DNA from: Sphingorhabdus lacus
Lineage (GTDB): Bacteria; Pseudomonadota; Alphaproteobacteria; Sphingomonadales; Sphingomonadaceae
NCBI RefSeq assembly: GCF_009768975.1
Contig: NZ_CP035733.1
Location: forward strand, 1,302,001 to 1,366,000
Length of the DNA stretch: 64,000 nucleotides
Reading direction: 5' to 3'
Shown here: one piece after another, positions 4,543 to 48,008 of the stretch
Numbering within the stretch: position 1 is the first letter of the stretch
How the letters are laid out: each line of letters starts with the position of its first letter
The notes under the pieces: model-generated
Told to the model about the DNA's origin: nothing
Seen by the model: only the letters and a program-made list of their open reading frames with translations
The model's database searches: none
Program-made: the position numbers and the translations under genes

Positions 4543-6111
4543 ATGCCGCTCGTGGGTATTCCAAAGGCCAGTCCTGTGACTGCGTCACTTGAACCCCGCT
4601 GCACTGTCGATGGCTTCGGGCAAGATCTTACTCGATCAGCGTTGCGCGCTGTCACCGGATATGTCGTGTCCACTTTGGACCGGAACGGTGTGATCATCGA
4701 GATCAACGACGATGCGCAAGCCATTCTCAGACGGCCTTTGTCGAGCCTTTTGGGCAACCCCCATGATCTCCTCTATCCTCTCGATGAGCGGGCTGCAGGT
4801 CAACCGATCGCTGACCGTGAAATGGCATCGCGCGACGGAAAGCTGGAGCGAGATGCCTGGCGCGTGCGTGGCGACGGGACAGAATTCCTGGCCCAATTAA
4901 CCATCGACCCTCTTCTCGATGAAGATGGGAGAGTGCTTGGTTTTGGCTGCATCGAGCGCGATATCACTCACGAGGTGTCCGTTCGGACGTCATTTGAAGC
5001 GCGGGAGCAACATTTGCGGTCGATCCTTGCGACCGTCCCCGATGCCATGATTGTCATTGACGAGAAGGGACGTATCACCTCGTTCAGCGCTGCTGCAGAG
5101 CGGCTATTTGGTTTTCTCGAGCAAGAGCTGCTCGGCGCCAATATCTCTTGTCTCATGCCCGAGCCCGACCGCTCGCGGCATGACCAGTACATCGCGCACT
5201 ATCTGAGCACCGGCGAACGCCGGATCATAGGGATTGGCCGCATTGTCGTTGGCCAACGCCGCGATGGAACAACCTTTCCCATGGAACTTTCGGTTGGCGA
5301 AGCGGGCGAACAAGGAAGCCGGGTATTCACCGGCTTCATCCGCGACCTCTCGGCAAAGGAACGGGACGAATTGGAGATCAAGACGCTTCAAGCCGAGTTA
5401 GTCCATGTCTCAAGAATCAGCGCGATGGGCACGATGGCGTCAACACTGGCCCATGAACTCAATCAGCCGCTCACGGCCATTGCAAACTATCTTGAAACGG
5501 TGCGCGATGTCTTGGATGGGCAAAGCAGTCTCCCGCCGGACAAACTCCGCGATGCAGTGAGTGAAGCAGCCGAGGAAGCGCTTCGCGCAGGAAACATCGT
5601 TCGACGCCTGCGAGATTTCGTTGGCCGCGGCGAGGTAGAAAAAACTATCGAAGGCCTTCGCGAGCTAATCGAGGAGGCCGCAAAGCTCGCTCTCTTGGGT
5701 GCGCGTGAACGAGGCGTGCGGAGCTTTTTTACATTGGACCCTGCGGCCTCGCCCGTTCTGGTCGATCGCATCCAGATCCAGCAGGTCCTCGTCAATCTCA
5801 TGCGCAATGCCGTGGAGGCGATGGTCGATGTCAGTCGCCGCGAACTGCGTGTCTCGACGCGATTGACGCCTGGAGGCTTTGTCGAAGTATCCATCGCCGA
5901 TAGCGGAACGGGAATTGCGCCCGAGATCTGGCCGAGACTTTTCGATGCCTTTGTGAGCGGCAAGGCTGACGGGATGGGGCTCGGTCTCTCCATCTGTCGC
6001 ACCATTATCGAAGCTCATGGCGGTCGCATCTGGGCCGAACAACCGCCGGACGGAGGCACAATTTTCCTATTCACATTGATTCATGCCCGCACGGAAGACA
6101 CCGATGACTAA
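4543..6111 (+). CDS. fixL: FixL-type heme-PAS oxygen sensor histidine kinase
   Basis: 522-residue soluble kinase: PAS (about 35-145), a second PAS with heme-site residues (about 155-270), then HisKA and HATPase. The second PAS matches Bradyrhizobium FixL closely. H213 in SRHDQY is at the axial heme histidine position (Bj H200), and R233 in IIGIGRIV is at the O2-switch arginine position (Bj R220). The phosphorylated histidine is H304 in TLAHELNQPL; the ATP site has NLMRNAVEA, DSGTGI and GMGLGLSI. The residue equal to Bj H214 is arginine (R227). It overlaps the fixJ-like gene by 8 bases, so the two form a two-component operon. No fixK, nifA or cbb3 target is in the window. Confidence 0.85.
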   Translation: MPLVGIPKASPVTASLEPRCTVDGFGQDLTRSALRAVTGYVVSTLDRNGVIIEINDDAQAILRRPLSSLLGNPHDLLYPLDERAAGQPIADREMASRDGKLERDAWRVRGDGTEFLAQLTIDPLLDEDGRVLGFGCIERDITHEVSVRTSFEAREQHLRSILATVPDAMIVIDEKGRITSFSAAAERLFGFLEQELLGANISCLMPEPDRSRHDQYIAHYLSTGERRIIGIGRIVVGQRRDGTTFPMELSVGEAGEQGSRVFTGFIRDLSAKERDELEIKTLQAELVHVSRISAMGTMASTLAHELNQPLTAIANYLETVRDVLDGQSSLPPDKLRDAVSEAAEEALRAGNIVRRLRDFVGRGEVEKTIEGLRELIEEAAKLALLGARERGVRSFFTLDPAASPVLVDRIQIQQVLVNLMRNAVEAMVDVSRRELRVSTRLTPGGFVEVSIADSGTGIAPEIWPRLFDAFVSGKADGMGLGLSICRTIIEAHGGRIWAEQPPDGGTIFLFTLIHARTEDTDD

Positions 6112-29332: not shown

Positions 29333-29725
29333 TCAATCTTCGTCGATTGGCGGCGCACCTTCATTGTTATTTTCGCGCGATTTGGTCAGGAAGTCGACCT
29401 TGTCGGCGTAGATTTCGCAGCCGTAGCGCTTGTTGCCTTCGGCATCTTCCCACTGTGAATAATGGATCCGGCCTTCCAGCGAAACCAGCTGACCCTTGGT
29501 GCAATATTTGGCGACATTCTGGCCCAGACCATTGAAGCATGTCACCCGGTGGAACTCGCTGTCCTTCGCGGTATAGCCATTCTCGTCCTTGTATGTTTTA
29601 CCCTCTTTGTTACGCGCCGGGCGGTCGGTAACAACGCTGATCGAGGTGATGGACGAGCCGCTTTGTGTTGTGCGGGTTTCTGGATCGCGGGCGATACGGC
29701 CAACGAGGATAACAAGATTTGTCAT
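29333..29725 (-). CDS. ssb: Single-stranded DNA-binding protein
   Basis: 130 residues: OB-fold SSB (MTNLVILVGRIARDPETRTT, SEFHRVTCFNGLGQNVAKYC, KGQLVSLEGRIHYSQWEDAE) with the acidic C-terminal tail APPIDED, a variant of the DDIPF partner-binding tail. It is shorter than chromosomal SSB (about 160-180), as is common for element-borne copies. CAGGAGA precedes ATG 29725. A structured leader lies at 29789-29901, and a strong terminator follows the gene. Confidence 0.92.
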   Translation of the reverse strand: MTNLVILVGRIARDPETRTTQSGSSITSISVVTDRPARNKEGKTYKDENGYTAKDSEFHRVTCFNGLGQNVAKYCTKGQLVSLEGRIHYSQWEDAEGNKRYGCEIYADKVDFLTKSRENNNEGAPPIDED

Positions 29726-29788
29726 GGGTATTCTCCTGAATATTGCATCCGGGACCATCCCGGCTGCGAACCAGACAGGAGGAGCGGG

Positions 29789-29901
29789 CAGCAGGCACTT
29801 GCACCGCAGAGACTGCGGGGAACCCCTTAAGCGCCGGGTGGTGCGGGCAGCCCTGCCAAGGGCAACACGGCCGGTAGCGTCGGGGTTGCAAGAGACTGCT
29901 G
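29789..29901 (-). ncRNA. Candidate structured leader RNA upstream of ssb
   Basis: Nested pairing: CAGCAG (29789-29794) with CTGCTG (29896-29901); CTTGCA (29798-29803) with TGCAAG (29887-29892), separated by a symmetric 3x3 internal loop; a hairpin CCGCAG-AGA-CTGCGG (29804-29818); ACCCC (29822-29826) with GGGGT (29882-29886); and an inner hairpin GCCCT-GCCA-AGGGC. A second leader with the same architecture is at 32037-32179, and both contain CCTGCCAAGGGCAA (here 29852-29865). The transcript strand is taken as that of ssb. Confidence 0.6.
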
Positions 29902-30059
29902 GCTGATTCATCCGGAGGTTCGCGCACACAGCCGGACTGGTCCCAGTTGTGAAGTTTTAGCGAGTTCCATTCTGGACGCTGGTGTATTGCCTATTCTACC
30001 CGCCAAAGCGCGGCGAATGTTCCTTGATTTGCAATCATATCGCCCAGTACAAAGACGGA

Positions 30060-30452
30060 TTATGCTGCACGGCTGACTGGCACCGCTGGAGCGGGTTCAG
30101 GCGGTGCATCGCTCGCCGGCTGGTCCAATTGGCGCCCTTTCAGCATCCAGGTCTGCGGCTGGATAAGGCGGCCCCAATCCGCAAAGGAAGGGATGAAGCC
30201 CAAGTCCTCGATAACATGCTGCTCGCCGACGAGCCGAACCGGAACAACCTTGCCGTCCGAGTTGGTGATGGTTGCACCGAACAATGTTTCGAGCATGAAT
30301 ATGCCTTCGGCATGATGGCGTAATGCGCGGTGTCTGGGGTCTGCAAAAATGGCCTTGGATTCGTCGAACCATTGGTGGAGAGCAAGATAATCATCGCTCG
30401 TTCCGCCCCACTTGCGGACCGACGAAAGCGCGTGATAATAGCAATGTGCCAT
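30060..30452 (-). CDS. DUF6915-like protein
   Basis: 130 residues from ATG 30452 (GGAGGAGG directly upstream). The N-terminus MAHCYYHALSSVRKWGGTSD and the block HQWFDESKAIFADPRHRALR, then HHAEGIFMLETLFGATI, are what I recall of DUF6915 proteins of sphingomonad mobile elements. Function unknown; the histidine-rich core could bind a metal. It lies 11 bases after the DUF6878-like gene and forms a pair with it. Confidence 0.75.
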   Translation of the reverse strand: MAHCYYHALSSVRKWGGTSDDYLALHQWFDESKAIFADPRHRALRHHAEGIFMLETLFGATITNSDGKVVPVRLVGEQHVIEDLGFIPSFADWGRLIQPQTWMLKGRQLDQPASDAPPEPAPAVPVSRAA

Positions 30453-30463
30453 GACCTCCTCCG

Positions 30464-30898
30464 TCAAAATTCGGTTGAATGGCTGTTGTACGACGTGAAG
30501 CGAAGATTGCAGTCGAGCTGGAAATTTTCTTCGGCAACGTCGATCAGTAATTCGCCGAATCCACCATCATTGATCTCCCAGCCATCATGATGCCGCTCCA
30601 GCACTTCATAGGCGAAGTCTTCCAGCAGCGAGGCAAGTTTGGCGTCGTCCCTGCCCTCGCGCGCAACGGCGATGTCTGGGCAGTCCACCACCTTGCCGTC
30701 GGCGCCAAAGAAGGTGGTTTGTTCGATCGCGCCACTGTCGCCGTAGCCATCGAAACGGATTTCGATCGTCGCAATGCCATGCGCCTTGAAATGTAAAAGC
30801 AATAGCGACTTCATTTTGGCTATTTCGACGTCTGCGGTAGCGTCGCGTTCAGCCTGGCCTGCGAGATAATCAGCCGCAATCTGCGAGAAATCGGTCAT
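30464..30898 (-). CDS. DUF6878-like protein
   Basis: 144 residues from ATG 30898 (GGAGGA upstream). A helical N-terminus (QIAADYLAGQAERDATADVE) leads into IATIEIRFDGYGDSGAIEQT, the family mark, then an acidic region and HHDGWEINDGGFGELLIDVA. This is typical of DUF6878, which occurs beside ParB, SSB and DUF2493 genes on sphingomonad elements. No function is known. Confidence 0.75.
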   Translation of the reverse strand: MTDFSQIAADYLAGQAERDATADVEIAKMKSLLLLHFKAHGIATIEIRFDGYGDSGAIEQTTFFGADGKVVDCPDIAVAREGRDDAKLASLLEDFAYEVLERHHDGWEINDGGFGELLIDVAEENFQLDCNLRFTSYNSHSTEF

Positions 30899-31024
30899 GA
30901 TAAAGTCCTCCTTTGCATGAACCTGCTGCGGACCATCCACATCAGTTCGAACGCACAAAAGACGCCTTCGCTCTCGCCAGATACGCCAGCGCAAATATGC
31001 GCTGGCGCAATGAACTGGGTACTA

Positions 31025-31978
31025 TCAGGACGGGGTTTGATTGACCGCTTTAGGGCAAGTTCCGATAGGACCACGACGATCGACAACGGTAATGCGCCGT
31101 GCCTTTGCATCGATGACCAAGCGCTCGAGAACACCATTGCCGGGAAACGCTATAATATAGCGCGGATCAAGCGAGAGCATTTGCTCGTTACGCTTGAACC
31201 CGGCGCGTGCACCAAGCCGCATATCGAGTGCAAAAGTCAGTTGCACCACACCGCGACGTTCGGCCCAGGATGCAGCCAGGCGGTCGACGCCCTTCGTGTC
31301 GCCGCCATGGATCAAAACCATGTCAGGCACCCGGCCATAAACCTTGTCGAGAGTAGCCCACACATTGCTGGCAAAGGTCTTAGCATCCTCGTCGGTTTGA
31401 AAGCGGTTACGACCGCCGGCAAAGACAACGGGTGTACCTTCCGGCATTGCTGCCTTGCGCTTCGACGCGCTGCGCGCACGCAGAAAATCGCGACCCTGAA
31501 CAACGGCGGACGTAAGCATCGCACCGTGATTGAACCGCGAACTCGATACGGGCTTCCACGATGATCCAAACTCGTTGAGGAACAGGCCTGCTGCGACTTC
31601 GCGTATCTCTTCAAGCGCAACCATGCTAGCTTCAGCACATTGCGCGCGCTCGATCTGGGTTTCCAGATCATGGGTCAGAACTTCCGAGCCGTCATTAGTG
31701 GCAACAAGCGCGCGAACTTCGTCGGTTGCGCGGTCGACAGCCGATGATTTGCGCTGCGCGGCACGGTGAAATAGATTGACCAGCCCCCAGCCAATATCTT
31801 CCGCGTCGGCTTCAAGCGCTGTATCGACAAACATCGCAAAGAGATCGGACCACACGCCGACCAGCGTCTGCGTTATGGCATCGGTTGACGGGTAATCGGT
31901 TGAGGTAACAGGCGGCGGCCCGATGGTAAAACCGGCAAGGTCTAGGCCTGCCAGTTGGTCGGCAAAAGTGGATTGCAT
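31025..31978 (-). CDS. DUF2493 (SLOG-like) domain protein
   Basis: 317 residues from ATG 31978 (CAGGAGA upstream). A helical N-terminal half (about 1-170) precedes the DUF2493 domain: GTPVVFAGGRNRF...DEDAKTFASNVWATL, DMVLIHGGDTKGVDRLAASW, YIIAFPGNG. That Rossmann-like fold belongs to the SLOG superfamily (nucleotide-ligand or DprA-like) and may bind a nucleotide messenger or modified nucleotides. It follows a 278-base untranslated region holding a structured leader RNA. Confidence 0.8.
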   Translation of the reverse strand: MQSTFADQLAGLDLAGFTIGPPPVTSTDYPSTDAITQTLVGVWSDLFAMFVDTALEADAEDIGWGLVNLFHRAAQRKSSAVDRATDEVRALVATNDGSEVLTHDLETQIERAQCAEASMVALEEIREVAAGLFLNEFGSSWKPVSSSRFNHGAMLTSAVVQGRDFLRARSASKRKAAMPEGTPVVFAGGRNRFQTDEDAKTFASNVWATLDKVYGRVPDMVLIHGGDTKGVDRLAASWAERRGVVQLTFALDMRLGARAGFKRNEQMLSLDPRYIIAFPGNGVLERLVIDAKARRITVVDRRGPIGTCPKAVNQTPS

Positions 31979-32036
31979 GATTTTTCTCCTGAAGGTGCTC
32001 AAGCCAAGCGGGAATTCCGCCAGCGAGAGCCCGTCA

Positions 32037-32179
32037 GGGCCAGCTTTCAGGGCTGATTGCGCACCGGAGCTCTGCTTCCGGGAAACCTGCCAAGGGCAAG
32101 GCTGGCGCGGGCAGGACAGCCACCGGCTGGACAACACGGGCCTGCCCCGGGCGGGTTGCGCAATCAGAACTGCTGGCCC
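32037..32179 (-). ncRNA. Candidate structured leader RNA upstream of the DUF2493 gene
   Basis: GGGCCAGC (32037-32044) pairs with GCTGGCCC (32172-32179); CTGATTGCGCA (32053-32063) pairs perfectly with TGCGCAATCAG (32157-32167). Inside, a hairpin CCGGA...TCCGG follows (about 32064-32081), then AACC pairs with GGTT next to the outer stem, and CCTGCCAAGGGCAA (32086-32099) recurs. The order of helices equals that of the ssb leader although the stem sequences differ. Confidence 0.6.
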
Positions 32180-32256
32180 AGGGCCTCTCTCGAATGGCGG
32201 ACCCCGCACTGCAGTGCTTTCAGCCAAAAAAATCAGCGCTAACGCCCGGAAAATGG

Positions 32257-32997
32257 TCAGTCCGTAACCGTCCCAAGACCAAATAGCTCAGCCGTAAACA
32301 CCAACCGTTCGGTCGCTGGAAATGCCGCATGGGCGGTCAAGCGGCCGTCCTCGAAACGGAAATGCCAGGTACGCTGTGGCACCGGCGGCTTGGACTGAAA
32401 AGCTGTAGGGGCAAGAATGACAATGTTGCAGCCACCTGCCAGATCGCGGGCTGAGGTCGTGCGTATCAGTTCGATCTCGACCAATCGCGCCAGCGATGCA
32501 AGTTCCTGGCACGCGGTGTAATCGCTTTTGTGCGTCCAGAGCGCAGTATCGGCGACAAAAGGAGCAAGTGTGAGGTCAATCGCGTAGTCGGTGCGAACCT
32601 TGGCGGTAAAGCTCGAATGCTCGGTCGTTGTCGACGGGGGTACAAAGCCCGGCGAGCGCAGAAAGAACCGCAATCGCCAATAGGCTGTCTCGGCAATTGC
32701 AGTGCTTTCGGTTTCACTGGCATAGAAAATGCCGGGCCGTTCATCGGCCCTGCGAAACCGGCTCGCGGTACGGTGACCATAGCGAAATGGCGATGACAGA
32801 AGAAAATGAAGTCCCCGCGCCTCCTTGGGCAGGTCAGGCTTTGCAGCTTCGGCCAGTGCTTCAAGCCGAGTCTGATCTTCGAGCGACGCGGCGAGCCTGT
32901 TGGTGGAAATCCGGTGCTGCGCCTCAACGACCCGCCAGACCGTACCCTCATAGCGCCTGACTTCAGACGCGAGCGCGGTGGGCGTCAACATAGTCAC
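32257..32997 (-). CDS. RES-domain toxin
   Basis: 246 residues. The RES family (Arg-Glu-Ser) of NAD+-phosphorylase toxins is recognised by the N-terminal EGTVWRVVEAQHRISTNRL, the central RFRRADERPGIFYASETEST, AIAETAYWRLRF, and the C-terminal glycine-rich turn. Such toxins deplete NAD+ and are paired with Xre/ParS-type antitoxins, exactly as here: its start overlaps the end of the upstream antitoxin by 35 bases. ATG 32991 is an alternative start. Confidence 0.85.
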   Translation of the reverse strand: MTMLTPTALASEVRRYEGTVWRVVEAQHRISTNRLAASLEDQTRLEALAEAAKPDLPKEARGLHFLLSSPFRYGHRTASRFRRADERPGIFYASETESTAIAETAYWRLRFFLRSPGFVPPSTTTEHSSFTAKVRTDYAIDLTLAPFVADTALWTHKSDYTACQELASLARLVEIELIRTTSARDLAGGCNIVILAPTAFQSKPPVPQRTWHFRFEDGRLTAHAAFPATERLVFTAELFGLGTVTD

Positions 32998-33340
32998 AAA
33001 CTGTCAGCAGGCCTTTGAAGCTGTCGATGAGGTCTATCGGCCGTGCATCAAGATCAAGATTGGCGACATCCAACCACCGGCGCGAAGCCGCATCATCGCT
33101 TCCAAGCAGAGCATCAAGGCTGCGAAACAGACGCAGCAGGAACTGGCCGGCTTCAAAGGATTTGGATGCAGGATCGAGTGTGGTCTGACCTGATCGCAGC
33201 CGCGAGACTGTGGCCTGCGACAGACCCAGCACGATACCCAGCTTTGCGTTGCTCAACCCCCAGAATTCTGCGATCTTTGCTACCGCAGAACTGAGAATAC
33301 GCGCGTCATCGCCTTTATTGGAGGCTAATTGGGTTGCCAT
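32963..33340 (-). CDS. Xre/MbcA/ParS-type antitoxin
   Basis: 125 residues from ATG 33340. An N-terminal helix-turn-helix (AEFWGLSNAKLGIVLGLSQA, TVSRLRSGQTTLD) is followed by the toxin-binding domain (FEAGQFLLRLFRSLDALLGS, SRRWLDVANLDLDARPIDLI). This is the usual partner of RES toxins and probably represses the operon by binding upstream repeats. An earlier in-frame start at 33382 is possible but would pass through the operator-like repeat. Confidence 0.85.
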   Translation of the reverse strand: MATQLASNKGDDARILSSAVAKIAEFWGLSNAKLGIVLGLSQATVSRLRSGQTTLDPASKSFEAGQFLLRLFRSLDALLGSDDAASRRWLDVANLDLDARPIDLIDSFKGLLTVCDYVDAHRARV

Positions 33341-33350
33341 ATCATTCCTT

Positions 33351-33386
33351 TCATTTGGTGTATATATCTTAATATCATTCAAATGA
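33351..33386. promoter_or_regulatory. Inverted repeat, candidate operator of the RES/Xre operon
   Basis: TCATTTG (33351-33357) and CAAATGA (33380-33386) are perfect inverted copies, 29 bases centre to centre, in an AT-rich stretch just upstream of the antitoxin start. The spacing of about three helical turns would suit two antitoxin dimers on one DNA face. Confidence 0.5.
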
Positions 33387-33426: not shown

Positions 33427-34365
33427 TTACGCAGCATCAGCCAAGTCGTAAGCGCTGTCGGCTTCTGTGACAGCGGTACGACCTCCAAGTTGCAACAACA
33501 AAGCGCTCGCTTCTTCGGCGCGCGCCGCGGCTGTAAGGATTGCGCGATCATCGCTGCGCAGCAGTTTCAACCAATGCCCGATATAGCTGGCATGGCTGTC
33601 CAAGTGGCTGACGGGAAGGCCCAACTCCGCACCAATGATTGCGCTGGAAAGTTCAGCGACCAGTTCTTCTGCGGCATAAGCCGCACTTCCAAAACGGTTC
33701 TTCAAATTGCGATCCAGTCGCGAGGCATGCCCGGTCCAATGCGATAGCTCATGCGCAAGCGTCGCATAATAATGATCGAACCCGGTAAAGAGCGATGCTG
33801 GAGGCATCGTAATCCGGTCAGCTTTGGGTTCGTAATAGGCCTGCTGTCCGTCATGACGCAAATTGGCAGGCATGGCGGCGAAGAATGCGTCGAGGCCAGC
33901 TTCCCGGCCTACCGGTTCCGCTACTTCCTGCACCGCGACAGGATGATAACGCTGGTGCAGTCCATCGATCTGGTCGGCATTGAAAACCGCATAGGCTTTG
34001 AGAACACGGCGTGTTTCTTCCTCAGCCGCGCCACCTGCAGGGGCTTCCACCTCCTTGACATAGCTTTTGTAGAATATCGCTTGGCTGGATTTGGAGCCTT
34101 TACGGACCTGACCGCCCAGTTTGACAGCTTGCGCATAGGTCATCCAATAAGGCGAGGCATAACCACAGCTTTCTGCCACCATCCAGAGCCAGAATACGTT
34201 CATGCCGCGATAAGGTGTCCCGCAGGCCCGTAATGGTCGTGAAACAGGTACGCCGCGCCATGGTTGAACCCAAGGCTTGGTGCCAGCTTCGAGGCGCTCA
34301 ATGATCTGCGCAGTTATGCGGGCGGCAGGCGATTGCTGGGTCTGCGCGTAATTTTTGCGGGTCAT
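33427..34365 (-). CDS. ArdC-like antirestriction protein with zincin domain
   Basis: 312 residues. The N-terminal ssDNA-binding ArdC domain is visible in AAQIIERLEAGTKPW-like strings (ITAQIIERLEAGTKPWVQPW) and GTPYRGMNVFWLW. The C-terminal zincin-like metallopeptidase domain has HELSHWTGH (H205, E206, H209) and later acidic residues EELVAELSSAIIG. ArdC proteins protect incoming conjugative DNA from host restriction. Its position among ssb and parB fits an element-establishment block. Confidence 0.9.
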   Translation of the reverse strand: MTRKNYAQTQQSPAARITAQIIERLEAGTKPWVQPWRGVPVSRPLRACGTPYRGMNVFWLWMVAESCGYASPYWMTYAQAVKLGGQVRKGSKSSQAIFYKSYVKEVEAPAGGAAEEETRRVLKAYAVFNADQIDGLHQRYHPVAVQEVAEPVGREAGLDAFFAAMPANLRHDGQQAYYEPKADRITMPPASLFTGFDHYYATLAHELSHWTGHASRLDRNLKNRFGSAAYAAEELVAELSSAIIGAELGLPVSHLDSHASYIGHWLKLLRSDDRAILTAAARAEEASALLLQLGGRTAVTEADSAYDLADAA

Positions 34366-34526: not shown

Positions 34527-36548
34527 TCAGGCGGCCAATTCGGCACTCACGTGACTGTCATCGCCCTCTTCCAGCGAATTCATGGTAGCTTGGGTATCAG
34601 CGTCGTCTTCATCACCGCACACTGCAGATATTTCATCCGATCGTTCGGATGGCGCTACGGCAAAAGTCATGGCTGCAGGAAGCCAGCCCAGTGCCCGGTC
34701 TTTCACCTCAACTTCGGTGATGAAATTGCCCGAAAAAATGCGTTCAGCACTGGCAGCCAGGTCGCCCTTTTTCGAAGCGGTAAAGCGCGACGACAATGTT
34801 GCACCGCCAACGTCCGCAAGTGCGTCCAGTATGACCGATTTGGATACGCGGTCAAAGAAGTTGGCAGCGGACGGTCGCCACCAAGCAGCCATGTCGATGC
34901 CCATCAGGCGGCCCAAATGGTCATGGAAGATATTGCTGCGGCCACCTTGCATGTTGAGGCTAGCTTCCAGCGTCCGTCCAACAACCCAACCGAGCCATGC
35001 GGCGCGCGCTGCCTCGTCGAGACTGCGGAACAGGTCGAACCTAACCGTTACCGTATCGCCCGCACGCCAACTTTCATCGAGGCCGGAACGGAGTTCTGCA
35101 AGCGACGCGGTTGCTGCGGCATCATGGGCGACAAAGCCGTGCGCCGGACCTGATGCAGCCGCTCCGCGGATCGTTAGGCCTGGCGTTGGTCCGAAGCGCG
35201 TCGTGTCGGACTCCGCTAGCGCAAAGACAAACAGATCGAGTGCAAGACCCGGATCGCTTGCAATATGAAGAGCCAAGACGTCACGGCGCTGCATTGCCAG
35301 TTCGTCCACAAGCCGCTGCGACATTGCCGCCCGCTTGGATTTTGGGCTGCCTTCGCTTGTGACAATTGTGATCGCGCTCCCGTCGTCACCCAGAACGACA
35401 TCGGTATCGGCATAATATTGCGGCTGGAGAACAGGCGCGCCGTCACGGCCGAGCGTCAGGATCAATCCGGTATTGGCTTTGATATCAGGGTCGATGATCT
35501 GGGGTCGATTACGAATAGCCGCGGTTTCTGCATCGATCTCGCTTATTTTGGTTTCTGCGGCGCGGATCGCCTCTTCATCCGAGCCTTCATCCTCAAGGAT
35601 TTCAGCCGCGGTATCATAAGCTGTATCGAGTTCGCTCAGCCGTTCGATTTCAGCTTCGGTCATAGGCAACTCGGACGTTGGAACGCGCTGCAAGCCTTGC
35701 GTGACATCATGCGTCACATAGCTTTCCAATGTCGGCTTTACCCACGCGACGCCCGCTTCGGATGCAAGACAGGCTGCAATTTCACTCATCTTGGCGGTCG
35801 CCAGCTGTTCAAGCAGCGCAATATCGGACCAGCTCTCGCTGTCTTCGTCATCGAACAGTTCGCGGTCAATACGGCCGCCGGCAGCGAGATATGCATCTTT
35901 GCCGACCAGACGCGCCCGCGGATCGCTGCCGTGGACAGTAGAATTGAGCACCATTCGGCGAATGCTGTCAGGCGACGTAGCGTACCAAGCCTTGGACGCA
36001 TCTTCGAATACGCGTTCCTGCACAGCCTGGTCTGACGTAGCACCATATGCTTTGGCAATGTCGAGCGTGATTTCACCGGCTGCAAGCGCCTCGAAAACGA
36101 CCGGCGCCAAGGATGCGAGCCGAAGTCTGCCTTCCACAAACCGCGTCGTCTGACCAAATCGGCGCGCCACATCTTCAACACTTGCGCCAGATTCAATGAT
36201 GCTGGCGAATGCCTGGGCTTCATCAGCAGGGTTCATCGCAAGACGGTGGAAGTTTTCGGCAAGACTGACTTCGCGGATCGCTGTCTCATCGCCGCCGATA
36301 ACAAGGCACGTAATCGGAACATTGCGTGCAACCGCTTTTTCGTCCGCCAGTGCCAAAAGTGCTGTGCGGCGGCGACCACCAGCCTCGACCTCGAACATAC
36401 CCTTTTTGGCGGGCCGGACGACGAGATTTTGCAACAACCCTTGTGCTGCTATGCTGGCTTTTAGCTCGGCGTCGGCTTTCGGGTCTGTATGCTTGCGGAC
36501 ATTTCGGGGGCTTGGAACGAGCTTGTTCAATGGAATTGACTGGATCAT
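34527..36548 (-). CDS. parB: Large ParB/RepB/Spo0J-family protein
   Basis: 673 residues, about twice chromosomal ParB. The N-terminal ParB nuclease/CTPase domain is clear (IPLNKLVPSPRNVRKHTD, AAQGLLQNLVVRPAKKGMFE, VEAGGRRRTALLALA, SLAENFHRLAMNPADEAQAF), then a helix-turn-helix (ASVEDVARRFGQTTRFVEGR). The C-terminal half carries long acidic helical and Trp-rich segments typical of element ParB proteins. No parA is in the window. It may segregate the excised element or act as a regulator. Confidence 0.85.
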   Translation of the reverse strand: MIQSIPLNKLVPSPRNVRKHTDPKADAELKASIAAQGLLQNLVVRPAKKGMFEVEAGGRRRTALLALADEKAVARNVPITCLVIGGDETAIREVSLAENFHRLAMNPADEAQAFASIIESGASVEDVARRFGQTTRFVEGRLRLASLAPVVFEALAAGEITLDIAKAYGATSDQAVQERVFEDASKAWYATSPDSIRRMVLNSTVHGSDPRARLVGKDAYLAAGGRIDRELFDDEDSESWSDIALLEQLATAKMSEIAACLASEAGVAWVKPTLESYVTHDVTQGLQRVPTSELPMTEAEIERLSELDTAYDTAAEILEDEGSDEEAIRAAETKISEIDAETAAIRNRPQIIDPDIKANTGLILTLGRDGAPVLQPQYYADTDVVLGDDGSAITIVTSEGSPKSKRAAMSQRLVDELAMQRRDVLALHIASDPGLALDLFVFALAESDTTRFGPTPGLTIRGAAASGPAHGFVAHDAAATASLAELRSGLDESWRAGDTVTVRFDLFRSLDEAARAAWLGWVVGRTLEASLNMQGGRSNIFHDHLGRLMGIDMAAWWRPSAANFFDRVSKSVILDALADVGGATLSSRFTASKKGDLAASAERIFSGNFITEVEVKDRALGWLPAAMTFAVAPSERSDEISAVCGDEDDADTQATMNSLEEGDDSHVSAELAA

Positions 36549-37076: not shown

Positions 37077-38783
37077 ATGGCACGGATTGTCTATATCGCG
37101 ATCAACAATTTTCGGTGCGTCGAAAAGCTTGACTGGGTTCCTTCGCCCGGGATCAATTGCCTGATCGGGCCAGGTGACGCCGGGAAGTCCTCAATTCTCG
37201 ACGCCATCGACTATTGCCTCGGGGCACGTCGAACCGTCCAATTCACCGACGCCGACTTTCACGGCCTCGATGTTACTACACCGATCTCAATTAGCATTAC
37301 AATTGGCGACTTGTCCGATGCACTCAAAAGCATTGATACCTACGGCGCATTCGTTCGCAGCTTTGATCCAACGACGGGATTGATCGACGATGAACCCGAA
37401 ACTGGCAAGGAGACCGTGCTCACAGTTCAACTTTCGGTGGGAAGCGACTTGGATCCCGTTTGGACGCTGGTCTCTGACCGAGCGAAGGCGCAGGGATTGT
37501 CACGCAATCTCACATGGGGCGATCGTACCCGCCTGTCTCCGACGCGAATTGGGGCGCACGCCGAACACAATTTAGCATGGCGGCGCGGCTCAGTGCTTAA
37601 CCGTCTTACCGAGGAAAAGGCGGACACTTCGGCTGCGCTCGCCAGTGCGGCGCGCGATGCCCGCAAAGCCTTTGGCGATCTTGCTGATGCGCAGTTGGGT
37701 GAAACCTTGAAGATCGTCGCCGACACCGCGCGCGAACTGGGTATTCCCGCAGGCGATAAGGTGAAAGCTATGCTCGATGCCCATTCGGTCTCATTTAGCG
37801 GCGGGACGGTGGCGTTGCATGGCGACGACGGTGTTCCTCTTAGGGCGTTGGGGGTCGGGTCGACACGCTTGCTGGTCGCCGGATTGCAGCGCAAGGCCGC
37901 CAAGGAATCAAGCGTTCTGCTCGTTGATGAACTCGAACACGGTCTCGAGCCGCATCGGATCATCCGCTTGCTTAGCTCGATCGGTGCCAAAGAAACACCG
38001 CCGCCGATTCAAGCTTTCGTGACCACGCATTCACCGGTCGCATTGCGGGAACTGCGTGGCGACCAGCTCTGGGTGGTGCGCAAGCCGCCGGGCGGTCACA
38101 AATTGGACCTCGTCGGGATCGCGGACCCCATACAAGGCACTATCCGCGCGCATCCCGAAGCCTTCCTCTCACATTCCGTGCTCGTGTGTGAGGGCGCCAG
38201 TGAAGTGGGACTTATTCGCGGTCTCGACCTGTTTTTCGCCGTGCACGGTTATGCTTCAATCAATGCACAAGGGGTCGCGTTGGTCGATGCCGGCGGCGTC
38301 AACAAGATTTACGGTCGCGCCGATGTTCTGCGTAATTTGGGCTACCGCACGGCCTCCCTTCGCGACGACGACGTGCAGCCGGATGCTGTAGAAGAGGGGC
38401 TGTTCACATTTAATGGTGGCTCCCTCTTCAAGTGGGCGGCTGGCCAGGCGCTCGAACATGCCATTTTCCTCGGCGTCAGCGACGCGGCGGTTCACCAATT
38501 GCTTGAGCGCGCCATAGATCTGCATGGCGAGGAACTCATCGGCGAGCATATTTTAGCCGCATCGCAAGGCACGGTTTCGCTGGCGCATTGTCGAGGGCCA
38601 GTTACCCCAGCAACGCGACAGACCTTGGCAATTGCTGCGAAGTGGAAGAAGAACGCCTGGTTCAAGACTGTGAGCTGGATGGAGGAAGCCGCTCGCGACA
38701 TCATTGGTCCGCATCATCAGAATGCGACCTTGGAATTCCGAACAGCGGTCAGCAACATTTTTCAGTGGGCTCACGGTGCTTGA
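37077..38783 (+). CDS. gajA: Gabija-like GajA: OLD-family ATPase-nuclease
   Basis: 568 residues, close to GajA length. The N-terminal ABC-type ATPase has Walker A GPGDAGKSS (31-39), the LGxG-type segment ALGVGSTRLLVAGLQR, and Walker B VLLVDELEHGLEPHR, then TTHSPVALRELRGDQLWVV, as in RecF/OLD proteins. The Toprim nuclease domain follows (SVLVCEGASEVGLIRGLDLF, GVALVDAGGVNKIYGRADVL). In Gabija, GajA is a sequence-specific DNA-nicking enzyme that forms a complex with GajB against phage. The next gene is a UvrD-like helicase, completing the pair. Confidence 0.85.
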   Translation: MARIVYIAINNFRCVEKLDWVPSPGINCLIGPGDAGKSSILDAIDYCLGARRTVQFTDADFHGLDVTTPISISITIGDLSDALKSIDTYGAFVRSFDPTTGLIDDEPETGKETVLTVQLSVGSDLDPVWTLVSDRAKAQGLSRNLTWGDRTRLSPTRIGAHAEHNLAWRRGSVLNRLTEEKADTSAALASAARDARKAFGDLADAQLGETLKIVADTARELGIPAGDKVKAMLDAHSVSFSGGTVALHGDDGVPLRALGVGSTRLLVAGLQRKAAKESSVLLVDELEHGLEPHRIIRLLSSIGAKETPPPIQAFVTTHSPVALRELRGDQLWVVRKPPGGHKLDLVGIADPIQGTIRAHPEAFLSHSVLVCEGASEVGLIRGLDLFFAVHGYASINAQGVALVDAGGVNKIYGRADVLRNLGYRTASLRDDDVQPDAVEEGLFTFNGGSLFKWAAGQALEHAIFLGVSDAAVHQLLERAIDLHGEELIGEHILAASQGTVSLAHCRGPVTPATRQTLAIAAKWKKNAWFKTVSWMEEAARDIIGPHHQNATLEFRTAVSNIFQWAHGA

Positions 38784-40191
38784 CGTCGATCTCCTGGCAA
38801 TCGACCGCGGTACCGTCACCGCGCCTGCCGGATGCGGCAAAACCCATCTTATTGCACAGGCGCTCACGCGGCATAGCGAAACCAAACCGGTTCTTGTTCT
38901 GACTCACACCAACGCCGGGGTGGCGGCATTGCGGGCGCGCCTCGACAAAGCTGGCGTCGCACCCGGCCGTTATCGCCTGTCGACGATCGATGGTTGGTGC
39001 ATGCGCCTGTTGACTTTGTTTCCAAAGCGCGGTGGCCACGATCCCGCCATTCTGTCGATCGGCAATCCAAAAGCTCATTATCCAGCGATACGGCAGGCGG
39101 CAGGAGTCTTGCTTCGTGACGGCCACATCAACGACGTATTGGCGGCGACCTATGATCGCCTGATCGTCGACGAATATCAGGACTGTTCACAGGTTCAGCA
39201 TGCCATCATCTACTATGCTGCGCAGAGCCTGCGAACTTGTGTCTTGGGCGATCCGATGCAGGCGATCTTCGGTTTCCAGGGCAATACTCTCGCCGACTGG
39301 GATCAGCATGTCTGCGCACATTTTCCAGTAGCTGCCGAGCTGACCAAGCCATGGCGTTGGATCAACGCCGGCGAAGAGGGCTTCGGGCGCTACCTACTCG
39401 ATGTCCGGCGTGCCCTGGTGGCAGGTCAGAGCGTTGATCTTGCCGCTGCGCCGCCAAACATCTCGTGGGTCCACCTAGATGGCACCGAAGATCATCAGCG
39501 ACGGCTGCGTGCGGGCGCGGTCGCGACCGCCGATGGCGAGAAAGTGCTAATCATCGCGGATTCAAAAAGTCCCAACGGACAAAGGCAGTTTGCCAGTCAG
39601 ATCCACGGCGCCGTCACGGTCGAGAATGTGGACATGCGGGATCTCGTCACATTCGGCGAAAATATCGATCTTTCGTCGCCCGAATTGCTCGACCATGTAG
39701 TAACCTTTGCGACCACGGTGATGACGAACACAGGCGGAGCTAACTTGCTCAACCGCGTCGCCACTTTGCGTGCCGGGCGAGAACGGAGACCGGCATCGCC
39801 CGTCGAGGCGGAGGCCATGAGGCTGGTCGAAAAACCTTCTTACGCAGCGGCAGCTGATCTTCTCGTCGAAATCGGCAAGGAGCACGGTGTCCGAACACAC
39901 AGGCCTGCTATCCTGCGCGGCGCTCTCCGATTGCTCAAAAGCTGCGGCGATGACGCCGATATGTCGCCGGCTAACGCGGCCGTTCAAGAGCGCGAGCGCT
40001 CGCGGCTCATTGGTCGACCACTTGCGAAGCGAACCGTCGGCAGCACGTTGCTTCTCAAGGGTCTGGAGGCCGACGCGGCGGTCATTCTCGACCCAAGCGA
40101 CATGGATCGACGCCATCTCTACGTGGCGATGACCCGAGGTGCCAAACGTCTGATCATTTGCTCTCGAAATGCGCGGTTGACGCCTGCATGA
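38776..40191 (+). CDS. gajB: Gabija-like GajB: UvrD/Rep-type helicase
   Basis: 471 residues from GTG 38776 (8-base overlap with gajA); ATG 38704 would give 495 residues but an 80-base overlap. Superfamily 1 motifs: TAPAGCGKTHLI (I), LTHTNAGVAALRARL (Ia), RLIVDEYQDCSQVQ (II), LGDPMQAIFGFQG (III), TVGSTLLLKGLEADAAVIL and HLYVAMTRGAKRLII (V/VI). It is short for UvrD, lacking the extra 1B/2B domains, as GajB is. By family knowledge it binds ssDNA and activates with GajA. Confidence 0.83.
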   Translation: MLDVDLLAIDRGTVTAPAGCGKTHLIAQALTRHSETKPVLVLTHTNAGVAALRARLDKAGVAPGRYRLSTIDGWCMRLLTLFPKRGGHDPAILSIGNPKAHYPAIRQAAGVLLRDGHINDVLAATYDRLIVDEYQDCSQVQHAIIYYAAQSLRTCVLGDPMQAIFGFQGNTLADWDQHVCAHFPVAAELTKPWRWINAGEEGFGRYLLDVRRALVAGQSVDLAAAPPNISWVHLDGTEDHQRRLRAGAVATADGEKVLIIADSKSPNGQRQFASQIHGAVTVENVDMRDLVTFGENIDLSSPELLDHVVTFATTVMTNTGGANLLNRVATLRAGRERRPASPVEAEAMRLVEKPSYAAAADLLVEIGKEHGVRTHRPAILRGALRLLKSCGDDADMSPANAAVQERERSRLIGRPLAKRTVGSTLLLKGLEADAAVILDPSDMDRRHLYVAMTRGAKRLIICSRNARLTPA

Positions 40192-46712: not shown

Positions 46713-48008
46713 TTAGCCCTGCGCGATCATCCAAGAGGAACCCCGGTTTTTGACGGCGGCATGCGCATCTACAATGCGTTGAACCTCATCGCCCCACAAC
46801 CTTAGCGCCTCTTGTTTTTCGACCGTATATTTATGGCGGTGATAAACTCCAGCGACCCCGGCTTTGGCAGCTCCAGACTGATGGTTAAGCACTGCTTCGG
46901 ACACAACCAGCGGTACGCCCAAGCGTTGTAAGCCCGTCGCAGCGGTACGGCGGATGTCATGCGGCGTGAAGTGCAAGATGTTACGATCTGTTTCGCGCAG
47001 CACTGAAGCCATAATCCGTCGCCAACCTTTAGGCATGCCGCCGGTACTATGAGCTGGATTGCCAATTGCCGGAAAAACTCTGTTCCCGGACAACCCAAAC
47101 TCATTGGAGCTTGATGCAAACATATCTCGTATTTCTTCAATAATGCTCACAGATTGAGCCGATAAGGGAACGATGTTGGCGATCCCGTTTTTCGCTCGGC
47201 TGCCAGGAATGGTCCACAGATTTGCGTCAAAGTCGAATTCGTCCCATTCCGCATTGATGACTTCGCCGCGGCGCTGCGCAGTCAAAATCAGTAAACGCAC
47301 CACCGTGCCGAAAGGATACCCCTCGCCAAGTGAAGCATCCCACAACTGCCCGAGTTCATAGTCTGACAAAACACGGTCGCGCGGCTTAGATGCTTTTGGT
47401 CGCCACGCATCCCTGCAAGGATGAGCCGGTAATCGGTCCAGCTTTGGCATCGCCCATGAATAAAAACTCGATAAATGCTGATGCACTGACCGCGCCATAC
47501 GCAGCGTTTCTTTACCCCGGCAAAATGCCATCTTCTCGATGAAGCGTGTCACATCGCCGCGGGTTACCGTATCAGCTATCCGGTCGCCCATTTCCGGAAG
47601 AATATATTTGCGAAATACTCGCTCTATTTCTCGCGCAGTTCGCTTTTTCCCTATGACCTCGTTCGTCAAATATGTTTCAAACAGCTCGCCAATTGTGCCA
47701 ATTCCCTGGGCATATCCGCGATTGGGATCGGACCGCTTGGGGATGCTTTGTCCCTGCTCAATGTCGGTAAGCAAATCTCGCGCACGACGACGCGCAGCGG
47801 CAAGTCCAAAGCCCAGCGAATGCCTGCCCAATGTCACATTATGAACCTTGCTGCCGATACGCTTTCGCAAGATGTAAGTTTTAACGCCACTCGCTCCGAC
47901 CCTCAGGCGTAAACCAGCTACGATTGAGTCCGTAATTTCGATTTGTCCGATTTTCGGTGGTAATAATCCAACGATACGGGCATCTGTAAGACCGACTTTT
48001 TTTGACAC
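46713..48008 (-). CDS. int: Tyrosine integrase (P4-type)
   Basis: 431 residues: N-terminal DUF4102-like arm-binding domain (TDSIVAGLRLRVGASGVKTY), core-binding domain and catalytic domain. Active-site residues: R246 (ILTAQRRGEV), H350 and R353 (FTPHDIRRTAATGL), H376 (VLNHQSG) and Y389 (GVYHRHKY). Such integrases insert elements at tRNA 3' ends. Its start is 114 bases from the tRNA-Lys-like attachment site at 48122-48184, supporting a direct link. Transcription runs away from the site. A promoter in the TTACCTTAGGTAAC region (about 48018-48031), itself palindromic, is possible. Confidence 0.92.
   Translation of the reverse strand: MSKKVGLTDARIVGLLPPKIGQIEITDSIVAGLRLRVGASGVKTYILRKRIGSKVHNVTLGRHSLGFGLAAARRRARDLLTDIEQGQSIPKRSDPNRGYAQGIGTIGELFETYLTNEVIGKKRTAREIERVFRKYILPEMGDRIADTVTRGDVTRFIEKMAFCRGKETLRMARSVHQHLSSFYSWAMPKLDRLPAHPCRDAWRPKASKPRDRVLSDYELGQLWDASLGEGYPFGTVVRLLILTAQRRGEVINAEWDEFDFDANLWTIPGSRAKNGIANIVPLSAQSVSIIEEIRDMFASSSNEFGLSGNRVFPAIGNPAHSTGGMPKGWRRIMASVLRETDRNILHFTPHDIRRTAATGLQRLGVPLVVSEAVLNHQSGAAKAGVAGVYHRHKYTVEKQEALRLWGDEVQRIVDAHAAVKNRGSSWMIAQG

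Follow-up and report, generated by a model that had tools for sequence, protein, structure and literature searches.

A family of long hairpins upstream of ssb and DUF2493 genes in alphaproteobacterial mobile elements, with a possible role as single-stranded-DNA promoters

The single-contig genome of Sphingorhabdus lacus (3.46 Mb) carries two long hairpins within a stretch of 64,000 nucleotides (nt) that was analyzed as a whole (positions 1,302,001 to 1,366,000 of NZ_CP035733.1; hereafter the window), one upstream of ssb and the other upstream of a gene of the DUF2493 family. We found that these hairpins belong to a structured family that is real, has no Rfam 15 match, is widespread in the Alphaproteobacteria and is tied to these two genes of conjugative elements. 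The copies covary in their stems, fold better on the strand opposite to the genes, and carry on that strand a conserved box at promoter-like spacing. We put at roughly 55% the probability that the elements are single-stranded-DNA promoters of the conjugation leading region, Frpo-like in action and unrelated to Frpo in sequence.

In the mechanism we propose, the transferred strand, here the plus strand, would fold into a long imperfect hairpin upon its single-stranded entry into the recipient, and the folded stem would offer the host RNA polymerase a promoter made up of a TTG near a three-way junction and, after about 16 nt, the conserved box. The polymerase would exit at the base of the stem, with the same strand as its template, into ssb or DUF2493, and the single-stranded-DNA-binding protein (SSB) and the SLOG-domain protein would be made ahead of the second strand. 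In double-stranded DNA the boxes face away from the genes, and the switch would therefore be off. The strand-folding test given below makes it likely that the strand which folds also serves as template for the genes; its identity with the transferred strand, its use by RNA polymerase and the timing of this use are what we infer.

Two homologous hairpins in the window

A preliminary description of the window had proposed two homologous structured leader RNAs, and each of the stems it named could be located. On the ssb side these are an outer stem CAGCAG/CTGCTG (29789-29794/29896-29901) and a hairpin stem CCGCAG/CTGCGG (29804-29809/29813-29818), and on the DUF2493 side an outer stem GGGCCAGC/GCTGGCCC (32037-32044/32172-32179) and a hairpin stem CCGGAG/TTCCGG (32064-32069/32076-32081). 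The proposed homology held: the two copies, about 2.3 kb apart, can be aligned across most of their length, and both strands of each element fold into long hairpins with RNA as well as DNA parameters. The folds extend outward past the limits first given, to a true length of about 195-200 nt. Drawn on the folded plus strand, the whole hairpin opposite ssb spans 29751..29944 and the DUF2493-side hairpin spans 32008..32207; their bases are separated from the respective start codons by about 25 and about 30 nt.

About 60 nt separate the named stems from the downstream start codons of ssb (29333..29725, minus strand, start 29725; Pfam SSB, E 2.2e-28) and of the DUF2493 gene (31025..31978, minus strand, start 31978; YspA/SLOG-type, Pfam YAcAr, E 4.5e-21), in agreement with the distance and common gene orientation first reported. 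The strand on which the structures had been drawn as leader RNAs is a different matter, since this plus strand is opposite to the genes and would thus not be an mRNA leader. RNA folding of 29780-29910 (ssb) gave a z-score of -2.29 on the plus strand and -1.22 on the gene strand, and folding of 32036-32180 (DUF2493) gave -6.11 and -4.90, respectively.

A 14-nt string common to both elements, CCTGCCAAGGGCAA, had also been offered as a sign of common architecture. Exactly two occurrences were counted in the window, and also two across the genome. In the alignment to the covariance model described below, it falls within the apical hairpin on the ssb side, and on the DUF2493 side it is flanked by two conserved segments; these positions are not homologous, and we therefore rejected the string as a homology signal and take its sharing for coincidence.

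A widespread family

When 72,556 plasmid records were searched by BLAST, the ssb leader matched 27 records, 19 of them typed as conjugative, and the DUF2493 leader matched 2; at none of the 29 listed BLAST places was there an annotated feature under the element (one record is unannotated). A covariance model, R1, was built from an alignment of 17 copies, the two of the window and 15 from plasmids. R1 places the conserved core on the minus strand at 29794..29894 on the ssb side (91.1 bits) and at 32054..32164 on the DUF2493 side (69.0 bits). Because both copies went into the training of R1, their scores carry no weight on their own; the BLAST matches of the ssb-side copy were obtained independently.

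The model found four copies in the window's genome, and it detected the element in 121 of 397 genomes of the same family (the window's own included), in 4 of 385 genomes of the class and in 6 of 299 of the phylum, all six inside the class. A pattern scan of species genomes returned at least 120 stretches. Of the 120 listed, 115 had an R1 match, most of them from Sphingomonadales and Rhodobacterales with some from Rhizobiales, and the five loci without one (L097, L104, L108, L119 and L175), which include the named non-alphaproteobacteria, were dropped. The R1 census ran on 254 sources, which did not include L001, L002, L016, L018, L023-L031, L033-L040, L047 and L050, and L013 was excluded from one run as a near-copy of L006. 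A second model for more distant copies, R2, gave nothing beyond the copies of R1 in 16 sources (L341 was new to the set). The collection came to 281 copies, made up of 181 matches and 100 further genome copies, with 220 distinct cores and 40 clusters at 80% identity. Among the 100 genome copies found by R1, 3 share their core exactly with a training copy and 19 share it with one in A4/A5.

Rfam release 15 gave no match at gathering score in the window or in L009, L010, L014 and L341, and none at E up to 1 in 29700-32300. The suggestion of a family of sphingomonad mobile elements proved right in that homologues exist and recur before element genes, and too narrow in its choice of hosts, which extend to Rhodobacterales, Rhizobiales and other alphaproteobacteria. 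Among the matches listed in a search of open-licence PMC articles, covering titles and the starts of abstracts, there was no description of the element or of alphaproteobacterial single-stranded promoters. In six genomes (G390, G442, G528, G685, G718 and G776) pairs of R1 copies lie about 22.2-22.4 kb apart on one contig.

Anatomy and covariation

Read on the gene strand, the core consists of CAACCC, a variable stem, GGCCGTGTTG, the apical hairpin, CTGCCCGCNCCACCC, GGGTTTCCC, a side hairpin and TG. A long outer stem, variable in sequence between groups, closes the core. The conserved gene-strand strings are CAACCC, CCGTGTTG and CTGCCCGCNCCA. In the ssb-side copy, the internal loop holds GCGGGCAG (gene strand CTGCCCGC) at 29843..29850 and CAACACGG (gene strand CCGTGTTG) at 29863..29870 of the plus strand, and the same two strings stand at 32107..32114 and 32132..32139 of the plus strand in the DUF2493-side copy. 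All 100 R1-found genome copies have CCG[TA]GT and TGCCCGC, 95/100 have CAACC and 75/100 the exact CCGTGTTG; among all 281 copies, part of which was chosen by a pattern holding two of the strings, the corresponding counts are 281, 274, 274 and 230.

In the 17-copy alignment 88.7% of the cells are paired, as against 34-47% with slid structures, and the covariation score is 0.315, as against 0.090 in shuffles. For the 100 R1-found copies (82 distinct rows) 87.8% of the cells pair, two-sided changes are present in 16 of the 27 pairs, and the score is 0.332 versus 0.113 in shuffles; this alignment was fitted to R1, and its counts consequently lean toward the structure. The compensatory change first noticed between the two window copies is borne out by both scores.

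Covariation and strongly conserved internal-loop strings, which many structured RNAs possess, would also be expected if the elements were structured leaders in the mRNA of the gene strand through which ssb and DUF2493 are controlled at the level of translation or transcript stability, for example autogenously by SSB. This is the main rival explanation, and a leader of this kind would likewise suit the fixed position of the elements.

Position before ssb and DUF2493

Placement was counted from downstream frames of the same strand. Of the 281 copies, 225 precede ssb at a distance of 47-92 nt and 42 precede DUF2493 at 61-96 nt, in each case on the gene's strand. The first set (n = 181) accounts for 131 and 37 of these, over the same two ranges, and includes 13 copies before neither gene; 11 of the 13 have at most 143 nt of downstream DNA, and two, L005 and L093, are truly without such a gene. 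The further set (n = 100) has 94 before ssb, 5 before DUF2493 and 1 before neither. The opposite strand was checked afterwards, and similarity to ssb or DUF2493 was found on it within 400 nt in none of the 281 copies. From this placement we conclude that the element is not a general repeat but marks two genes, and the expected recurrence upstream of element genes is evident. The L005 copy (5996-6109, on a Pseudorhizobium plasmid) is followed by an IS110 transposase on the opposite strand as the next annotated gene.

While the shared strand and narrow start-codon distance are in keeping with an mRNA leader, they are not what one would predict for a single-strand initiation site of the ssi or sso type, at which the folded transferred strand would mainly prime the complementary strand and ssb expression would be a by-product or absent. 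Priming needs no fixed start-codon distance, and the copies stand 47-96 nt before just two genes. On the other side, the strand logic of such a site is the same as that of a single-stranded promoter, and Frpo reportedly makes primer RNA too, judging by the title of Masai and Arai (1997). A site of this type, sso1, is known in ICEBs1 according to PMC4595007. On balance we consider an initiation site improbable.

The strand that folds

Folding tests were carried out on 241 of the 281 copies, namely those that are distinct, contain no N and have at least 200 nt of flanked sequence. When DNA energies were used, 240 of the 241 folded better on the strand opposite to the genes, the last being a tie, as did 39 of 40 cluster representatives, again with one tie, by a median of 7.8 kcal/mol; with RNA energies this was so for 237/241. 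RNase P control loci favoured the RNA strand in 30/30, and windows taken upstream of these copies as a control divided 18:15 under RNA energies and 11:22 under DNA energies, the latter leaning to the opposite strand. The bias is present in the outer arms alone, without the conserved core (37/40), and is still significant against dinucleotide shuffles (36/40). Among closely related copies, single changes at paired sites more often give mismatches that are stable on the opposite strand, by 277 to 182 (p 1e-5). Giving the energy test the most weight, we conclude that the folded strand is likely the one opposite to the genes.

For an mRNA leader the structure should be favoured on the mRNA strand. 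Covariation is present, yet the gene strand folds worse in the same 240 copies, and the idea that the elements are mainly gene-strand RNA, which the preliminary description implied, fares poorly on this test; counts of alignment cells, given below, lean the other way. Taking the evidence together, we judge the leader unlikely, though it is the alternative we take most seriously.

Given that the opposite strand folds better, an RNA made from that strand, whether antisense or a trans-acting small RNA, was also considered. The outer stem begins about 25-30 nt from the start codon, which leaves little room for a promoter, and the narrow gene distance would be left unexplained; we give this possibility very little credence, less than any other. 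A double-stranded site acting in resident DNA, such as a cruciform or a protein-binding inverted repeat, would account for the inverted-repeat structure, but duplex DNA provides no obvious reason for a strand asymmetry of mismatches and energies, and we regard such a site as highly improbable.

Promoter-like boxes on the folded strand

At the 3' side of the core, the folded strand carries GGGTTG followed by a conserved box, YYAGGK (TTAGGG, TTCAGG, CCAGGG, CCATGT and similar). The spacer from TTGNNN to the box is 15-18 nt in 37 of 39 cluster representatives, with a full span of 15-20 nt. The box motif has a log-likelihood of 70.1, compared with a mean of 15.4 and a maximum of 25.0 in 60 shuffles; the search omitted L093 (1 of the 40 representatives) and used 30 restarts for the data and 12 per shuffle. 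In the 5' to 3' direction the boxes face away from the gene as long as the DNA is double-stranded, and toward it once the strand has folded.

In the ssb-side copy the putative -35-like element is TTGCAA at 29886..29891 of the plus strand, its GGGTTG being conserved and also part of the conserved core. A possible second box, TTCATC, lies 15 nt past it (29907..29912, plus strand) and is weak in this copy, for which the motif search chose TCCGGA (29911-29916) instead. The DUF2493-side copy has a putative -35-like TTGCGC at 32156..32161 and, 16 nt past it, the conserved box CCAGGG at 32178..32183, which may be -10-like (both plus strand).

Conservation of the flanks climbs at the outer arm, from 0.58-0.77 to at least 0.80, in four of five clusters, and stays mostly high into the gene. 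In alignments of the clusters with 50, 15, 11 and 10 flanked members no conserved promoter-like block was seen above the hairpin, no promoter scan having been run; for four of the five clusters this is a further point against an mRNA leader.

Conjugation context and gene neighbourhood

In all six fetched loci that hold a relaxase gene (L009, L010, L011, L014, L015 and L341), both ssb and DUF2493 are oriented toward it on the same strand. L341 is a second island of the window's genome (G000:C1:1966580-1981977), with the order ParB, ArdC, DUF2493, ssb, TrwB-type coupling protein and TrwC relaxase, and it carries two element copies of its own. VirB4-type genes are located at 1614659 and 2867425 in this genome, far from both copy pairs. 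A candidate nic-like sequence, CTATCCGG, is present on the expected strand upstream of mobC in four loci; in exact ATCCTG-type scans there, the expected strand had no match and the opposite one had a single match, in L014.

The window's elements lie in a minus-strand island of genes for a toprim protein, a strawberry-notch helicase, ParB (34527-36548), ArdC (33427-34365), an Xre/RES pair, DUF2493, DUF6878, DUF6915 and ssb. ArdC and ParB, both on the minus strand in the orientation of ssb and DUF2493, recur as neighbours on several related plasmids. The tyrosine integrase of the island is at 46713-48008. Between DUF2493 and ArdC, a RES-domain gene and an Xre/MbcA/ParS-type antitoxin gene occupy 32257-33382, and a Gabija pair, GajA (PADLOC E 4e-229) and GajB (E 1e-185), is found inside the island on the plus strand at 37077-40191.

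Discussion

Several observations weigh against the elements being single-stranded-DNA promoters. With respect to folding, the TPP control was without strand difference (11:11 with RNA energies, 13:9 with DNA energies), and dinucleotide shuffles keep 4.3 of the 7.8 kcal/mol, so that about half of the bias is composition. The two strands of the Frpo elements of plasmid F are themselves nearly equal (-72.4 vs -71.6 and -76.7 vs -73.4 kcal/mol), and one of the elements has the better z-score on the gene strand. The RNase P mismatch control runs in the opposite direction to the elements but is weak, at 111 vs 78 in clusters (p 0.02) and 80 vs 73 in the whole alignment (p 0.63). Events of G-T versus A-C type are borderline with 80% clustering (103 vs 131, p 0.08); they number 70 vs 108 (p 0.005) with 85% clustering, and 107 vs 119 and 77 vs 99 when the structure is taken from the fold of the other strand. 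In the wobble-event controls the counts were 55 vs 47 in clusters and 42 vs 31 in the whole alignment for RNase P, and 13 vs 9 for TPP, for which the 22 of 30 loci with CTGAGA were kept. In the model alignment (82 distinct rows), on the other hand, gene-strand G-U cells exceed A-C cells by 81 to 29, with 64 of the 81 in two columns. This excess would favour an mRNA leader, while the event-based mismatch test leans away from one. Events and cells lean opposite ways; wobble asymmetry is weak as a clean strand test, and we rejected it as such.

The boxes and the genetic context raise points of the same kind. YYAGGK is not a canonical -10, and the TTG belongs to the conserved core and is therefore not independent evidence. 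The notion that the A of the box is specially exposed was rejected, as it is unpaired in 22/37 cases compared with 184/332 for other A in the same arm. In the largest cluster (72 members) the DNA above the hairpin is already conserved at 0.76-0.87 and rises to 0.95, a small step that leaves the flank test less than clean. Of the six loci with a relaxase, four are MOBP-type plasmids related to one another, no relaxase was found with two query relaxases in the window or in the 20 kb to its left, and the PF03432 relaxase is absent from the window's genome.

We give slightly less than even odds to a broader claim, namely that the single-stranded-DNA promoters proposed here form a class of their own, distinct and widespread among the plasmids and integrative elements of alphaproteobacteria, and have a recognition core of their own in place of the canonical boxes. 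A previous large search for Frpo used similarity to five known sequences and the TTGACA/TATAAT consensus (Samuel et al. 2024, PMC11541004, as outlined there), and a 2026 paper is stated to have reused the sequences and 13 candidates of that study (PMC12826799). Because such searches start from known sequences or from TTGACA/TATAAT, a GC-rich family with another core would probably escape them. Were the claim true, transcription straight from incoming DNA would have evolved, or diversified, well beyond enterobacterial plasmids; a simple model would suffice to recognise the first genes expressed on entry of many environmental alphaproteobacterial plasmids and islands, and whether early gene expression from incoming DNA is a general strategy could be tested in harmless soil bacteria.

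Two further families of long hairpins were observed in the fetched loci. One, with a different core (GGATCGG..CCCCCAATTTT..AAAATCGG..CCCCCACCGCCCGC), is found on a Sphingopyxis plasmid at L009:22750-22955 and L009:25150-25345, where it precedes DUF2493 and a small open reading frame (ORF), and by BLAST it matches 77 plasmid records at 105 places. The other, at L010:25270-25528, is upstream of a leading-region ORF of 54 amino acids for which Pfam gave no match, and is also present before short ORFs at L014:28478 and L015:16562; it matches 112 plasmid records, Bradyrhizobium and Mesorhizobium included, many of the matches being partial. Both families may belong to the same class.

Comparison with known systems

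According to the account of Frpo in PMC9849209, folding of the single strand into a stem-loop restores -10 and -35 boxes, and the promoter is switched off once the second strand is synthesised; plasmid F has two copies about 5 kb apart, one of them upstream of ssb, and single-stranded-DNA promoters are presented there as demonstrated for F and as a proposal for ColIb-P9. Samuel et al. (2024) report, in the portion of PMC11541004 that deals with the 300 most prevalent leading-region families, that anti-defence and SSB genes are found solely on the transferred strand. In F, traM lies in the reading direction of the leading genes ssb, parB and psiB, and in the region before ssb we found that the transferred strand folds into a hairpin spanning 276 nt.

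The window's elements resemble Frpo1, Frpo2 and the ssi of ColIb-P9 in several respects. A stable, long and imperfect hairpin stands directly upstream of the leading-region ssb, there are two nearby copies, one at ssb and one at another gene (as described for F in PMC9849209), the genes read toward the transfer region, and the promoter-spaced boxes face the gene only in the folded strand. They differ in being GC-rich, in their strongly conserved internal-loop core and in their alphaproteobacterial hosts. R1 showed no similarity to F, the one plasmid compared, with a best score of 11.8 bits (E 1.2) over 20 kb of the leading region, and the F region before ssb matched at least 5000 records by BLAST, those listed being from Escherichia, Klebsiella, Salmonella, Shigella, Citrobacter, Enterobacter and Cronobacter, with 1 from Pseudomonas and 4 uncultured. 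The passages of PMC9849209 on Frpo describe canonical boxes, whereas the second box here is not TATAAT-like. Given the absence of sequence similarity to F and a second box that departs from the canonical -10, we did not file the family as a member of Frpo.

The STAXI motif of Weinberg et al. (2010) is likewise a conserved structure near genes for single-stranded-DNA-binding and antirestriction proteins, and its authors discuss possible structured single-stranded DNA while favouring RNA, by the account given in PMC2864571. It is described there as mainly a repeated pseudoknot, unlike our hairpins, at which no Rfam family matched at E up to 1. The sso1 of ICEBs1 shares with the family that it is a structured, orientation-specific single-strand element of a conjugative element; it drives second-strand synthesis, and the part of PMC4595007 that treats it mentions no promoter role toward a downstream gene. 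Finally, riboswitch-like mRNA leaders have in common with the family a covarying structure, conserved strings and a narrow distance before the gene, and it is the folding bias toward the strand opposite to the genes that sets the family apart from them.

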